Assembly (NCBI GenBank): GCA_026390595.1
Contig: JAPLFQ010000006.1
Span: forward strand, 1 to 64,000
Origin: Ignavibacteriales bacterium
GTDB lineage: Bacteria > Bacteroidota > Ignavibacteria > UBA10030
Length of the DNA stretch: 64,000 bases
Direction of reading: 5' to 3'
Below are positions 33,545-38,893 of the stretch, in pieces; the first letter of the stretch is position 1; each line of letters opens with the position of its first letter. The notes beneath the pieces are model-generated. The model did no database searches, was not told where the DNA came from, and worked only from the letters and a program-made list of their open reading frames with translations. Both the position numbers and the translations under genes were made by a program.

Positions 33545-33676
33545 ATGGCAGATCAAGAAATGGGACAGAAGAGTGAAGGCCGCCCTGTCACGGGGTACTA
33601 CGTCTTCATGGGTTTGGTTCTTGTCGTGCTGGTAATCATCGTAGGATACGTAGTTCAATCATATCTTGTCCGTTGA
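33545..33676 (+). CDS. 43-residue single-helix membrane protein
   Basis: A small frame starting M-A-D-Q-E-M-G-Q-K, with one hydrophobic helix (about residues 18-38) and a short basic tail ending S-Y-L-V-R. It has GAAGGGG upstream, follows the TPR gene by 33 bases and precedes the next lipoprotein gene by 44. Length, helix and operon position support it being real. No family recognised. Confidence 0.6.
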   Translation: MADQEMGQKSEGRPVTGYYVFMGLVLVVLVIIVGYVVQSYLVR

Positions 33677-33720
33677 GAGAATACACTCACACCTCATCTC
33701 ACAAAGAAAGGGCGCATACG

Positions 33721-34725
33721 ATGAAGCACAGATTGCTCGGCATTGCAATGATTTTCATTCTTGGGCTGACAGGATGTGCCAAGAAGGAACCACTGCCACC
33801 GATCAAGGAGTGGGACAGGAATCAGGATCCGTACTTCAAGGTGCAGTTCGATTATCCGAAGGGATGGTCCAAAGGAGGAGAATCTGGAAAGATGACCTTC
33901 ACGTCCTCCAACGAGGCGGTGGGCAAGTTTTTCGATCCTACTTCTAAGGAAGCACCAGACGGCGCTCAGATCATGGTGAGCTATGAGAAAGAAGACACGT
34001 TGAAGACGCTGGACGGATTTCTGCAGGAAGAGCGGACGGATCTGGGTGCTTCCGGATTTGACCTGAAGCCCGCAGAGCCCGTCACGGTCGACGGTACTCC
34101 CGCGATGAAATTCAGTTATAGCGGCCGCTACAACAACAAGACCGTCATCGCTGCGACACGGGTGTTCATTCTGAAGGACTCTGTGCTTTTCAAGGCAACC
34201 TTCTGGGCATTCAATGACTACTTTGAGCCTTACAAAGCTGCTCTCGATACGTTTATTGCGACCGCCCGGCTGCCAAAAGCGAAAGGTGTCAAGGTTGACG
34301 AGTCCATTCCGTCGTCAACCTATGAGACTTTGAAGAACGACGTCCTCGAAATCGCCTATCCGAGCAATTTCAATCCGGTACAGCCTGCACCGAAAGGAGA
34401 AGTGACGTTCACCTTGATGCTTCAGGGCTACAGGAACGATTCCAATGTCCTTATCGATGTGCGTCCGGCGAAGAAACTGACGCTCGAAAAGGTGATCGAG
34501 CAGAATACGAAGTTCTACAAGCCGACCTCTACCGGCCAGGCAACGATTGACGGCAACAAGACGACGTACCTCAGTTACTCGACGACGAAGGACGTTGCGA
34601 GCAGGGCTTATTTTGTTGTCAAGAACGACAAGATCTATCGTGTTATCATCAATTATTACAAGCCCTCGGAGAAGGACTTCCTCCCTGCATTCGAAAAATC
34701 TGTTGCGTCACTTCGCATAAAGTAG
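33721..34725 (+). CDS. Lipoprotein with DcrB/PsbP-like segments
   Basis: A 334-residue lipoprotein (Cys19 in G-L-T-G-C). Two similar halves each contain F-x-Y-P-x-G/N-F and later aromatic beta-strand motifs, recalling the DcrB/PsbP-like fold. It is the last gene before a strong terminator and presumably part of the TonB operon. Function unknown. Confidence 0.7.
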   Translation: MKHRLLGIAMIFILGLTGCAKKEPLPPIKEWDRNQDPYFKVQFDYPKGWSKGGESGKMTFTSSNEAVGKFFDPTSKEAPDGAQIMVSYEKEDTLKTLDGFLQEERTDLGASGFDLKPAEPVTVDGTPAMKFSYSGRYNNKTVIAATRVFILKDSVLFKATFWAFNDYFEPYKAALDTFIATARLPKAKGVKVDESIPSSTYETLKNDVLEIAYPSNFNPVQPAPKGEVTFTLMLQGYRNDSNVLIDVRPAKKLTLEKVIEQNTKFYKPTSTGQATIDGNKTTYLSYSTTKDVASRAYFVVKNDKIYRVIINYYKPSEKDFLPAFEKSVASLRIK

Positions 34726-34749
34726 TAAGATAGTCCCGCCTCTGGACGG

Positions 34750-34786
34750 AAAGCCGGGGTAGCGATACTCCGGCTTTCTCTTTTCT
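34750..34786 (+). terminator. Intrinsic terminator of the tonB operon
   Basis: A 12-bp stem (34750-34761 with 34766-34777, one G-U pair) on a GCGA tetraloop, followed by CTCTTTTCTT. It lies 24 bases after the last lipoprotein stop and only 28 bases before the next gene's start. A similar hairpin precedes the duplicate permease gene. Confidence 0.9.
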
Positions 34787-34805
34787 TCAGCAATGAGCAT
34801 GTGCG

Positions 34806-36563
34806 TTGTCTTCTGAAAGTGTTGACATCTCATCGACTCCTCACGGAGTCGCCCGACTAGCGACCAGCCGTCCACGCGTTCTCGGTTGGCTCCGAAGTGC
34901 CGCCATCCTCGATGGAGATTGGGGTACGAGCGTCGCCTATGTCATGGGCATCGGGTTTGCCCTGGCTGGGTACAGCAGTTTCTGGCACCTCTCGGCAATG
35001 ATGGGGCTGACCTCTCTCGTCGCCATCAACTACATCACGATCTGCCGTTTGTACCCCAATGGCGGCGGTGTCTATGGGTCTGTCTACCATCGGTCACAAC
35101 TCCTCGCCGTAGTCGGAGCGCTCCTTCTCGCAGCAGATTACATTATCACGATGGCCTTGTCGATCCTGGACGCGTGCCATTATTTTGGCGTTGAAAGCCC
35201 CGTTCTGTGGGCGATTGTCATTATTTGTGTAATTGCCGCTCTCAACTGGTTTGGCCCGAAGCACTCCGGCGGACTCGCGTTACTGATCACGGCGATCACA
35301 GTCATTGCGCTCCTCGTTATCGTAGTCATGTCTGCACCCGCAGCACTTTCTTCTCCGAGAATCGACCTGCCGAAGGGAGGATTCCTCCACAACTGGGGAA
35401 TATTCACCGGGTTTATTCTGAGCCTTTCCGGCATCGAGGCTATCTCAAACATGACGGGTTTGATGAAGGATCCGACGAGAGACTCGCGAAGAGCCATTCT
35501 TTCGGTTCTCATGAAGGTTCTCATCGTGAATGGCTTCCTCGGACTTGCAATGCTCGCCGTTCAGGGTTTGACGCCGGGGGATCATCTTGAGGACATGATC
35601 CGGTTTCTCGGTGAACACTACGTTGGTGAATGGTTCGGATGGGTCATCGCAGCGTCTTTGGGCGTCCTTCTGATCTCAGCAGGAAACACGGCGTTGAACG
35701 GACTCATCTCTGTGCAGTTCCTCATGTCGGTCGATAGTGAGCTGCCGCCATCGCTCAGAATTCTGAACCGGCACGGTGTCCCCATTGTCCCGCTTCTCCT
35801 GTCCACCGCAATCCCAATCGTGGTGTTGCTCCTGGTCGGGAATGTTGAAACGCTGTCCCATCTCTATGCAATCGGGCTGGTCGGAGCGATGACAATCAAC
35901 CTCGGATCGACGGCCACGGACAAATCCATCAAGCTCCGCACTATGGTGCGGGTGTTCATGGCAATCTCTGCAACCGTGCTCCTGCTTATTGAAATCTCGA
36001 TCGCAGTCAACAAGGTCCAGGCTGCGTTGTTTGCGTCCGCTATTCTTGTTACAGGTCTGAGCGCCCGTGCGATCGTGAAGGCCCGTGCGAAGATTCCGGT
36101 GCCGGCAGTGGAAGCAGTGCCGGAGGCCGCGGCACCTGCCCGGCGGCGACGCCGATCTATCCCCAGCAGGAAATATTTGCTGGCGCTGAAAGACGTCAAT
36201 GAAAAACTGATCAGGTTCGCGATTGACGAGGCCAAGGCGCGTAATGCATTCCTGTTCATCCTTCGAGTGAAGGAAATAGCTGTTGGTACGTTGCCGGCAC
36301 AGTTGGAGATGCCGACGAACGGTCAGGAGAAGTTGATCGACCGTATTTGTGCGGAAGCCGGGCTCGATTATCAATCTGTCCAGATCCCAAGTTATGACGT
36401 GGGCTATACGATCGCCGAGCAGGCAGCGACCTTCGGTGTTGAGCGGGTCATCATCGGAGCGCAACAGCGGAGCCGGCTTGAGTATGTGCTGAAGGGAAGT
36501 GTCATGCGCGCTTTGAACAGCCTTCTCCCGGAGGATGTTCAACTTGTCATCTATGGCGGTTAG
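34806..36563 (+). CDS. APC-type permease fused to a UspA-like domain, copy 1
   Basis: A 585-residue protein: an APC-superfamily amino-acid/cation transporter (about 11-12 helices, residues about 40-430) joined through an arginine-rich linker to a C-terminal universal-stress-protein domain (about 455-585). The latter keeps the G-x2-x-R...G-S-V-M nucleotide-binding pattern. The start is TTG with no Shine-Dalgarno: no in-frame ATG or GTG exists before the first helix, and the paralogue's N-terminus matches from this codon. Codons 11-15 include a GACTCC-tcac-GGAGTC hairpin. UspA tails often sense ATP or cyclic di-AMP; substrate and ligand are unknown here. Confidence 0.85.
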   Translation: MSSESVDISSTPHGVARLATSRPRVLGWLRSAAILDGDWGTSVAYVMGIGFALAGYSSFWHLSAMMGLTSLVAINYITICRLYPNGGGVYGSVYHRSQLLAVVGALLLAADYIITMALSILDACHYFGVESPVLWAIVIICVIAALNWFGPKHSGGLALLITAITVIALLVIVVMSAPAALSSPRIDLPKGGFLHNWGIFTGFILSLSGIEAISNMTGLMKDPTRDSRRAILSVLMKVLIVNGFLGLAMLAVQGLTPGDHLEDMIRFLGEHYVGEWFGWVIAASLGVLLISAGNTALNGLISVQFLMSVDSELPPSLRILNRHGVPIVPLLLSTAIPIVVLLLVGNVETLSHLYAIGLVGAMTINLGSTATDKSIKLRTMVRVFMAISATVLLLIEISIAVNKVQAALFASAILVTGLSARAIVKARAKIPVPAVEAVPEAAAPARRRRRSIPSRKYLLALKDVNEKLIRFAIDEAKARNAFLFILRVKEIAVGTLPAQLEMPTNGQEKLIDRICAEAGLDYQSVQIPSYDVGYTIAEQAATFGVERVIIGAQQRSRLEYVLKGSVMRALNSLLPEDVQLVIYGG

Positions 36564-36823
36564 CACGAAAAAGGTCACGATATTCCACATCGCAATGATC
36601 ATTCTGACTGATTTTCGAATAATTGTACTTCAAGAAATCATCCTCGCCCCCATTGTCTGACTCCCGAGATCTGCCTGGCTTCCATTGAGATACGAATGAC
36701 GAAATCGCCAAACGGCCAAATCTATTTGATTTGATGGCCGAAAATGGTCGATTTTCGCCGGTTCTTCAATTACTTATTGCGGAATAAGAGATAATAATGT
36801 AAGATAGACCCGCCTCAGGAAGG

Positions 36824-36861
36824 AAGGCCGGGGTATCAAAACCCTGGCTTTCCTATTTTTA
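36824..36861 (+). terminator. Terminator-like hairpin before permease copy 2
   Basis: An 11-bp stem (36824-36834 with 36841-36851, two G-U pairs) and TCCTATTTTTAT. The surrounding TAAGATAG-x-CCCGCCTC bases match those after the tonB operon, so the hairpin appears duplicated with the gene. It may act as a terminator of copy 1 or as leader attenuator of copy 2. The rest of the 36564-36873 gap shows nothing else. Confidence 0.75.
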
Positions 36862-36879
36862 TAGTATTTCGCATTGACG

Positions 36880-38637
36880 TTGTCCTCTGAAAGTTCTGAC
36901 ATCTCATCGACTCCACACGGAGTCACCCGTCTAGCAACCAGCCGTCCGCGCGTTCTCGGCTGGCTTCGCAGCGCCGCCATTCTTGATGGAGATTGGGGTA
37001 CCAGCGTTGCCTATGTTATGGGCATCGGGTTTGCTCTGGCTGGCTATAGCAGCTTCTGGCATCTCTCTGCAATGATGGCACTGACATCTCTCGTCGCCAT
37101 CAATTACATCACCATTTGCCGGCTTTATCCCAATGGCGGAGGAGTGTATAGCTCCGTCTACCACAGGTCGAAACTTCTGGCTGTTGTTGGAGCCCTTCTT
37201 CTCGCTGCCGACTACATTGTCACAATGGCGCTTTCGGTTCTGGACGCCTGCCACTATTTCGGGCTTGAGAACCCGGTTCTGTGGGCTATTGTCGTCATCC
37301 TGGCCATCGGGGCGTTGAACTGGTTTGGTCCAAAGCATTCAGGAGGATTGGCTCTTCTCATCACCGCGTTCACTCTCGTAACCCTTTTCGTCGTGATCGT
37401 TGCGTCTGCACCTACTGCAATCGCATCCGCCAGAATCGATGCTCCCCAGGGTGGACTCATGCATAACTGGGGGATTTTCACAGGGTTCATTCTGAGCCTC
37501 TCGGGAATTGAAGCAATTTCCAACATGACGGGCTTGATGAAAGACCCGACCCGGGATTCTCGCAAGGCCATACTGGCGATACTTGTGAAGGTTTTGATCG
37601 TCAACGCGTTTCTTGGGTTGGCGATGCTTGCCATTCAGGGATTAAAACCTGGAGACTACCTCGAAGACATGATCAGGTTCCTTGCAGAACACTATGTCGG
37701 GAAGTGGTTTGGTTTGGTTATCGCCTCGTCACTGGGGGTATTGCTCATCTCGGCTGGCAATACAGCACTCAACGACCTGATCTCCATACAGTTCCTGATG
37801 TCGGTAGACAAGGAGCTGCCTTCTTCGTTGAGGATTCTCAATCGACATGGCGTCCCGATTGTTCCACTTGCTGTCGCGACGCTCGTTCCCATCATAGTCC
37901 TTCTCGTAATCGGCAACATCGAAATGCTCTCCCACCTGTATGCGATCGGTCTCGTGGGGGCCATGACGATCAATCTTGGTTCGACGGCTACTGACAAGAG
38001 CATCAAGCTGAAATCACTGGTTCGCGGATTCATGATGGTTTCAGCGACCGTCCTTCTTCTCATCGAAGTTTCCATCGCGATCAACAAGACGCAGGCTGTG
38101 ATTTTCGCTTCCTCCATTCTTGTCGTCGGTCTGGGGGCGCGCACTCTTGCCAGGCGCCGCTACCGTGAAATCCCAACCGTACCCGAGGTCGCCGAAGTCT
38201 CCGCCCCACGGCCGATGCGCAAGCCAAGGAAGATACCGAGCACCCGGTACCTCCTGGCGATGAAAGAGTTGAACGAGAAACTTCTTCGATTTGCGATCGA
38301 AGAAGCCGAATCGCGCAACGCGTTCCTGTTTGTTCTCAGGGTCAAGGAAATCGCCGTCGGTGCATTGCCGGCTCAGTTAGAGATGCCAACGAACGGACAG
38401 GAACAGAAGATCGAGCAGATCTGCTACGATGCAGGGATCGATTACCGGTCTGTCAGGATCCCCAGTTACGATGTCGGGTATACGATCGCCGAACAAGCGG
38501 CGACATTCGGCGTCGAACGGGTCATCATTGGTGCTGAACAACGGAGCAGGCTTGAGTATGCGCTGAAGGGAAGCGTCATGAGATCGCTCAGCAACCTGTT
38601 ACCTGAAGATGTTCAGCTTGTCATTTTTGGCGGCTGA
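36880..38637 (+). CDS. APC-type permease fused to a UspA-like domain, copy 2
   Basis: A 585-residue paralogue of the gene at 34806, collinear over its whole length, with the same transporter body and UspA-like tail (G-A-E-Q-R-S-R near the nucleotide loop). The start is taken as TTG at 36880, the position equivalent to copy 1; a TTG at 36874 would add two residues. The N-terminal hairpin (GACTCC-acac-GGAGTC) is conserved. Differences are mostly third-base and conservative. It is unclear whether the two copies have different substrates. Confidence 0.85.
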   Translation: MSSESSDISSTPHGVTRLATSRPRVLGWLRSAAILDGDWGTSVAYVMGIGFALAGYSSFWHLSAMMALTSLVAINYITICRLYPNGGGVYSSVYHRSKLLAVVGALLLAADYIVTMALSVLDACHYFGLENPVLWAIVVILAIGALNWFGPKHSGGLALLITAFTLVTLFVVIVASAPTAIASARIDAPQGGLMHNWGIFTGFILSLSGIEAISNMTGLMKDPTRDSRKAILAILVKVLIVNAFLGLAMLAIQGLKPGDYLEDMIRFLAEHYVGKWFGLVIASSLGVLLISAGNTALNDLISIQFLMSVDKELPSSLRILNRHGVPIVPLAVATLVPIIVLLVIGNIEMLSHLYAIGLVGAMTINLGSTATDKSIKLKSLVRGFMMVSATVLLLIEVSIAINKTQAVIFASSILVVGLGARTLARRRYREIPTVPEVAEVSAPRPMRKPRKIPSTRYLLAMKELNEKLLRFAIEEAESRNAFLFVLRVKEIAVGALPAQLEMPTNGQEQKIEQICYDAGIDYRSVRIPSYDVGYTIAEQAATFGVERVIIGAEQRSRLEYALKGSVMRSLSNLLPEDVQLVIFGG

Positions 38638-38754: not shown

Positions 38755-38893
38755 GCCACAAAGTCACCCCGCCAGAACGCGTAGCCTGCCCGCCTCTGGT
38801 GGCTCCAACTGGCAGGCGGGCGGGCTGGCTGGCAAGCCACGAAGGATTCGATGTCGATTCTTCTACTCTTTGCGCTTCTTTGAGTCTTGTGGC
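38755..38893. repeat. Degenerate MITE-like element
   Basis: A left end GCCACAAAGTCAC (38755) faces a right end whose complement starts GCCACAAGACTCA (to 38893). In the centre is an 8-bp palindrome of GCCCGCCT and AGGCGGGC. The 38638-38980 gap otherwise carries nothing recognised. Confidence 0.5.

Follow-up and report, generated by a model that had tools for sequence, protein, structure and literature searches.

The window analysed here, a stretch of 64,000 nucleotides (nt) from contig JAPLFQ010000006.1 of an Ignavibacteriales bacterium (GCA_026390595.1), contains two permease-UspA genes in series (copies 1 and 2), located behind a tonB / PstS-like / TPR / PsbP-like row and ahead of two further APC permeases. 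The names tonB, PstS-like and TPR were assigned from open reading frames (ORFs), and the PsbP-like gene order is conserved in relatives. The features at the two junctions are as follows.

33673..34725, + strand: PsbP_2-like lipoprotein gene, last of the tonB / PstS-like / TPR row (ORF; PF18933, E 1.6e-10).
34703..34731, + strand: predicted copy 1 promoter, TTGCGT - 17 nt - TAAGAT (orthologue pattern, genome pattern counts).
34732..34742, + strand: C-rich discriminator and predicted transcription start region of copy 1, with a purine at 34738 (31-site base profile).
34748..34788, + strand: terminator-like hairpin and T-rich tail behind PsbP, inside the predicted copy 1 5' untranslated region (UTR) (terminator scan, fold, covariation).
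34806..36563, + strand: copy 1, a KUP/KimA-like APC transporter with a C-terminal UspA domain and a TTG start (ORF, domain, profile and fold matches).
36777..36805, + strand: predicted copy 2 promoter, TTGCGG - 17 nt - TAAGAT (sequence, orthologue pattern).
36806..36816, + strand: C-rich discriminator and start region of copy 2 (sequence, base profile).
36821..36864, + strand: terminator-like hairpin with T tract, inside the predicted copy 2 5' UTR (terminator scan, fold).
36880..38637, + strand: copy 2 of the transporter, with 80% amino-acid identity to copy 1 (ORF, alignment).

The original prediction that both copies are preceded by a similar stretch, a hairpin with a T tract and a TTG start was confirmed, with TAAGATAG-x-CCCGCCTC preceding each. 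A 17-mer, TAAGATAGNCCCGCCTC, is identical at 34726-34742 and 36800-36816 (0 mismatches); there was no further match in the window at 3 mismatches (shuffle mean 0.28; 2 matches in 3/100 shuffles) and, with 2 mismatches allowed, the 4.77-Mb genome as a whole holds only these two occurrences. The hairpin stems (34748-34779 and 36821-36854) have 14 pairs each, are followed by the tails CTTTTCTTC and ATTTTTATAG, and fold at -23.0 and -25.0 kcal/mol, respectively. Both had the top pair number among the 14 terminator-like sites found in a 9-kb scan of the window, where 9.0 sites were expected in shuffles. The distance from hairpin end to TTG is nearly the same in the two copies (26 nt and 25 nt), while that from upstream stop codon to hairpin is 22 nt versus 257 nt.

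The TTG starts are credible because an in-frame TTG stands 18-20 codons before a conserved TSRPR-like motif in 19/22 host-family loci; the same position holds GTG in genome G020, ATG in G016 and no start in G021. The copy 2 start was placed at 36880 by alignment, but an in-frame TTG at 36874 is also open. No Shine-Dalgarno sequence was seen before the TTG of either copy, as judged by eye only. A second hairpin lies within the first permease codons (window 34835-34850), and a 48-base stretch near the permease start beats dinucleotide shuffles (p < 0.05) in 7/22 family loci (L009, L014, L008, L035, L012, L037 and L011), mostly with stems of 7-11 base pairs and differing sequences; the window copies miss this level (p 0.13 and 0.10). 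Genome G004 (L033) has what appears by eye to be a repeat-like insert between hairpin and permease start, about 190 nt upstream of the permease.

The conserved stretch before each copy is best read as a promoter, consisting of a -10 box with a C-rich discriminator, rather than as a leader motif. Both copies have the pattern TTGCG[T/G] - N17 - TAAGAT, and its general form, TTG-N20-TANN[AC]T (the strict pattern below), was searched for at orthologues. Among 14 leaders not adjoining a PsbP stop codon (G017, in which PsbP is more distant, and 13 loci that have no PsbP upstream), 11 carry it, compared with a mean of 0.53 and a maximum of 3 in 500 dinucleotide shuffles and 0 on the reverse strand. 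It also occurs at 13/17 PsbP-linked loci, and G067 has a tandem pair of its own in which each copy matches it. These counts leave out G011; anchoring failed for L043, and L040 duplicates G063. In the bacterium's own genome, TTGAC-N18-TATNAT has 20 matches versus 1 for the reversed pattern. Across 31 orthologue promoter sites, counting the first -10 base as 0, positions 9-12 are 55-65% C and positions 15-17 are 55-81% T; this profile omits G016 and G034 and retains G015, G020, G021, G025 and G026 despite their failing the strict pattern. The triplet CCC follows the -10 box at 12/31 orthologue sites versus 2/20 genome-wide promoter matches. The promoter upstream of the genome's single 16S match reads TTGACT-N17-TATATT-GTAAACCCCGC, so a C-rich discriminator appears to be at home in this genome. 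A literature search for Ignavibacteria promoters gave nothing relevant.

A wider role for the combined motif was rejected as a candidate. TATNAT-N3-6-CCC[AG][CT]TTTT matches once in the own genome, as does the reversed control, and has 4 matches in 3/8 relatives versus 8 for the reversed control, one of the 4 being the G038 permease promoter; since matches do not exceed the reversed control, it is no regulon motif. The sole own-genome match (L120 near 1500; G000 C25:317220-317240) combines a promoter, a C-rich discriminator and an A followed by five T, and lies upstream of a protein that we take from its sequence to be elongation factor P.

Could the hairpin lack a promoter before it, with TANNNT arising by chance or from a preference in terminator flanks and the transporter being read through from the tonB row? 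The genes are co-directional and close, with 80 nt from the PsbP stop to the copy 1 TTG, and the promoter match partly overlaps coding sequence: the PsbP stop codon (TAG, 34723-34725) abuts the copy 1 -10 box, and the copy 1 -35 box lies within the final PsbP codons. We nevertheless consider this highly improbable, because the same pattern appears, far above shuffles, where the upstream gene is divergent. Divergent upstream neighbours occur at the second copy of G003 (kdpC, kdpA), in G021 (a TetR gene; this leader lacks the pattern) and at L040 (a histidine kinase gene), and G043 has a similar divergent ORF upstream. The transporter paralogue that neighbours kdpC and kdpA in divergent orientation is at L085 (4796-9546).

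Genomes in which the permease was naturally lost, moved or replaced allow the promoter signal to be told apart from the terminator signal. PsbP is present in 23 of 32 family genomes, and one 3' flank was read per genome. TANNNT directly follows the PsbP stop in 16 of the 17 genomes in which the permease follows and has no other promoter. It was found in none of the three genomes in which the permease has been lost (G002, TACGAC at the -10 place), has moved (G021, AAGTTG) or has its own promoter further down (G017, CGATCG, with the permease -35 box 91 nt past the stem of a separate terminator). The box is retained in G030 (TATTAT), where the gene is mostly deleted, and in G028 (TACTAT), where a different APC transporter (PF13520; L089 6557-8584) directly behind the PsbP terminator replaces the permease; in G024 the -10 place reads TATACT and the contig ends behind the flank. 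Fisher tests, which draw on few lineages and carry no correction for kinship, gave p 0.0035 for 16/17 versus 0/3 and p 0.012 with G030 added to the other side (16/17 versus 1/4). Comparison across these genomes therefore shows the -10 box tracking the downstream transporter gene and not the PsbP gene.

This association also bears on the idea that the junction produces a separate small RNA of about 50 nt, derived from the 3' UTR at the PsbP end, with the transporter reached secondarily by read-through. The predicted start lies only about 45-50 nt from the end of the hairpin tail in most junctions, which fits such an RNA. However, a box that follows the transporter rather than PsbP, together with start-to-hairpin sequences that differ between genera, makes a small RNA very unlikely in our judgment.

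In contrast to the promoter, the terminator shape accompanies the end of the upstream gene. A stable hairpin lies behind PsbP in all 23 flanks (further down in G019 and G027, unrelated in G017, and only -12.7 kcal/mol in G021), and it persists behind PsbP where no permease adjoins (G002, G021, G028 and G030, and G024 up to the contig end). When the rule of the 9-kb window scan was applied uniformly to all leaders, 13/24 gene-end junctions had a terminator-shaped site versus 0/15 other permease leaders. The former comprise 10 of 18 junctions (17 PsbP-permease junctions plus window copy 2) and 3 of 6 PsbP flanks without a permease directly next; the latter comprise displaced family leaders (0/3: the second copy of G003, G021 and G017), f3 leaders (0/10, including both G067 tandem copies) and two others (0/2: G016 and G034). 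By this comparison, terminator shape is tied to the end of the upstream gene, and thus the structure is probably mainly a terminator. The hairpin of copy 1 had been proposed to terminate the tonB operon, and it does stand at the end of the tonB-PsbP row; the hairpin at 36821..36864, 257 nt past the end of copy 1, is the probable terminator of copy 1.

The expectation that these hairpins are selected for structure was borne out by covariation analysis of 20 of the 23 PsbP 3' flanks plus copy 2 (21 sequences; G017, G019 and G027, whose hairpins are unrelated or stand at another position, were omitted). Changes on both sides were found at 9 of 14 hairpin pairs, 88.7% of cells pair, and the covariation score of 0.349 compares with 0.217 in shuffles (reached by 0/500) and 0.100-0.152 in slid controls. 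The number of further pair types (21 versus 19.0 in shuffles, reached by 80/500) is not above shuffles.

Another possibility is that the hairpin does not end transcription but shields the transporter mRNA from decay at its 5' end. In most junctions the predicted 5' end would be only about 10 nt away from it, and the required T tract or stem is missing in 8/18 junctions and in all 3 displaced leaders. T-rich tails follow the hairpin in 10/18 junctions, though, hairpins persist behind PsbP where there is no adjoining permease to protect, and the f3 orthologues have no terminator-shaped site; we regard such protection as most improbable.

Taken together, these patterns suggest, with reasonable though not high confidence, that each copy has its own promoter and that the hairpin is the terminator of the preceding gene, in which case the arrangement is most likely an ordinary, if compact, junction between genes and not a novel RNA switch. 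Each transporter copy would be driven by its own sigma-70-type promoter, retained together with the gene. Because the gene usually stands directly behind the PsbP-like gene, the -10 box would fall after the PsbP stop and the hairpin about 10 nt into the transporter transcript. The hairpin is probably kept for the most part because it serves the preceding gene as an intrinsic terminator; that gene is PsbP in the case of copy 1 and copy 1 in the case of copy 2. With the start predicted about 10 nt before the hairpin, transporter transcripts would have to read through it. The start site, termination and read-through are all predictions, and our guess is that read-through is partial (leaky) and unregulated, which fits the imperfect tails at many junctions. 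The conserved non-ATG start could further lower output, leading to modest expression.

Several observations weigh against this explanation. The strict promoter pattern is missed by G021, G016 and G034 away from PsbP and by 4/17 PsbP-linked loci (G020, G015, G025 and G026); G015 has CATGCT at the -10 place behind PsbP although the permease follows. The conservation of the copy 1 -35 box is not independent, since it falls in protein-constrained codons, and the counts on which the promoter's link to its gene depends rest on few lineages and ignore kinship. On the terminator side, 8/18 junctions fail the scan rule although all hold a stable hairpin, so the terminator reading is not uniform. The displaced leaders retain a weaker hairpin without a T tract (G021, -14.7; G017, -12.2; second copy of G003, -11.2 kcal/mol), so displacement did not abolish it. 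The copy 2 hairpin matches that of copy 1 in strength even though 257 nt separate it from the end of the gene upstream, an observation that a function in the leader could also account for. Finally, G016 has a co-directional upstream DsbD-like gene, yet neither a terminator-shaped site nor the promoter pattern.

The original prediction proposed the leader as an attenuator or riboswitch of the permease. As a conditional attenuator, the hairpin would stop transcription from the nested promoter unless a signal (e.g. K+, cyclic di-AMP or a protein) favored read-through. A stable hairpin does lie between predicted promoter and start codon in 17/17 PsbP-permease junctions and in copy 2, its pairing is under selection, and displaced leaders keep a weaker form. 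Furthermore, PMC10284832 describes Bacillus subtilis kimA as controlled by a cyclic di-AMP riboswitch. However, Rfam at gathering score returned only a tRNA in the whole window, and at E up to 5 it returned nothing credible in 34690-36960, with two small-RNA families far below their cut-offs. When the start region was matched against the 5' arm of the terminator (upstream pairing only), pairing was no better than in shuffles in 22/23 leaders, the single leader beyond shuffles being G003a (p 0.032). An antiterminator formed by the C-rich stretch and the G-rich arm was tried and rejected: the two can pair in copies 1 and 2 and in G001, but shuffled leaders do so equally. A terminator upstream of the permease irrespective of the preceding gene was found in 0/15 leaders away from a PsbP junction, although window copy 2 is one case that fits this expectation, and the f3 orthologues, including the G067 tandem pair, hold the promoter without terminator shape (0/10). 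Since neither an Rfam match nor a sign of antitermination was found, the idea of a leader that senses a signal lacks support, and we consider conditional attenuation unlikely.

Three sets of leaders were folded to a consensus, which included the terminator hairpin in 3/3 and a hairpin near the start codon in 2/3; in genus g9 an extra stem encloses the terminator and does not compete with it. Sequence resembling TTGAACTCGGAA is shared by genus g9, G006 and G009 just past the terminator tail (L067, L070, L071, L072, L074, L073, L066 and L065), and the g9 version is predicted to base-pair with the start region, enclosing the terminator. It is also conceivable, though quite unlikely, that a neighbor's terminator has been captured as a gate, with the C-rich start region or a protein setting read-through according to K+ or nucleotide supply. 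Regulated read-through, if true, would be of wider interest.

The history of the two copies appears more complex than the tandem duplication originally proposed, which is only partly right. A simple recent tandem copy is ruled out by the protein tree (34 rows, without L042, L044, L046, the tandem pair of G067 and G011, which is truncated by a contig end), in which copy 2 groups with the dispersed copy of G003 (100/100) and copy 1 with G004 (100/99) and then G001 (99/98). Between copies 1 and 2, the leader and the first ~270 coding bases are 75-92% alike, while later 60-base stretches are mostly 60-82% alike, falling to 37% in the linker. The 17-mer is nearly intact across copies 1 and 2 and G001, and the G004 protein is 94-95% identical to copy 1 but has a different junction before its gene, near that of G005. 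Recombination or gene conversion around the leader likely explains this mismatch of tree and junctions. As to the related claim that the duplicated unit carried its terminator along, promoter and leader are common to both copies, and a simple copy is no likelier than gene conversion or recombination. Downstream, between copy 2 and the next permease (38786-38825), a GC-rich stretch, CCCGCCTC...GGCGGGCGGG, looks palindromic by eye and may be a dispersed repeat.

If correct, the explanation by a separate promoter and a neighboring gene's terminator means that a gene can retain its promoter even where a neighbor's terminator falls inside its 5' UTR, a layout for which a literature search on overlapping promoter-terminator junctions found no example. 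Automatic attenuator screens could misread this promoter-before-terminator order. The data also point to an Ignavibacteria group of KUP/KimA-like transporters that combine a Kup-like motif in the first transmembrane segment (TM1) with a UspA domain.

Among characterized transporters, KimA is the closest comparison. Pfam assigned AA_permease and Usp to copy 1 and Usp alone to copy 2. A single-sequence PDB search had no match at E 0.01, whereas KimA (6s3k) was the best PDB match by sequence profile (E 7.6e-16) and KimA structures (6s3k, 8b70 and 8b71) were the first three Foldseek matches (E 1.8e-18 to 1.1e-16, TM-score 0.60-0.61, identity to KimA 18%). The Foldseek query model had a predicted local distance difference test score (pLDDT) of 75.8; its whole-chain root-mean-square deviation from KimA was near 16, which we put down to domain arrangement. 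The K+-site and proton-coupling residues named in PMC6994465 are conserved, with Ser for T230: read off the alignment by eye, KimA D36, Y43, T121, S125, E233, N237 and Y377 correspond to D38, Y45, T115, S119, E211, N215 and Y354, invariant in 12 homologues, while the equivalent of D117 (D111) is nearly invariant in them and T230 is replaced by S208. Unlike KimA, the C-terminal domain scores as UspA, and the TM1 motif LDGDWGTS (copy 1, 34908-34931; LYGDWGTS in the Verrucomicrobia homologues L041, L042 and L043) is near the VFGD/IYGD motif that, according to the same paper, KUP members carry and KimA lacks. The protein is thus KUP/KimA-like and probably active in potassium uptake, of which the location of one paralogue next to kdpC and kdpA is an indirect hint.

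The junction itself resembles three known systems in part. Conserved 5' terminators and attenuators, as described in PMC2965389, likewise place a terminator near the start codon of a transporter gene, and the distance-ratio rule given there would keep copy 2 as a candidate (25 nt to start, 257 nt from the upstream stop), a point in favor of attenuation, and discard copy 1 (26 nt and 22 nt); the leaders studied here differ in having no antiterminator signal. The predicted promoters share their spacing and the C-rich stretch after the -10 box with rRNA-type promoters that have a GC-rich discriminator, including the genome's own rRNA promoter, although the genome's other promoter-like sites are less C-rich (CCC at 2/20). 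In E. coli, GC-rich discriminators confer stringent (growth-rate / guanosine tetraphosphate, ppGpp) control. The hairpins differ from typical intrinsic (Rho-independent) terminators in lying downstream of the next gene's predicted promoter, within its 5' UTR, and in that 8/18 junctions miss the strict scan rule and several tails begin with C (CCCTTTTG). They resemble such terminators in having a GC-rich stem and a T-rich tail at a gene end, as seen in both window copies, and in keeping their pairing despite sequence change.

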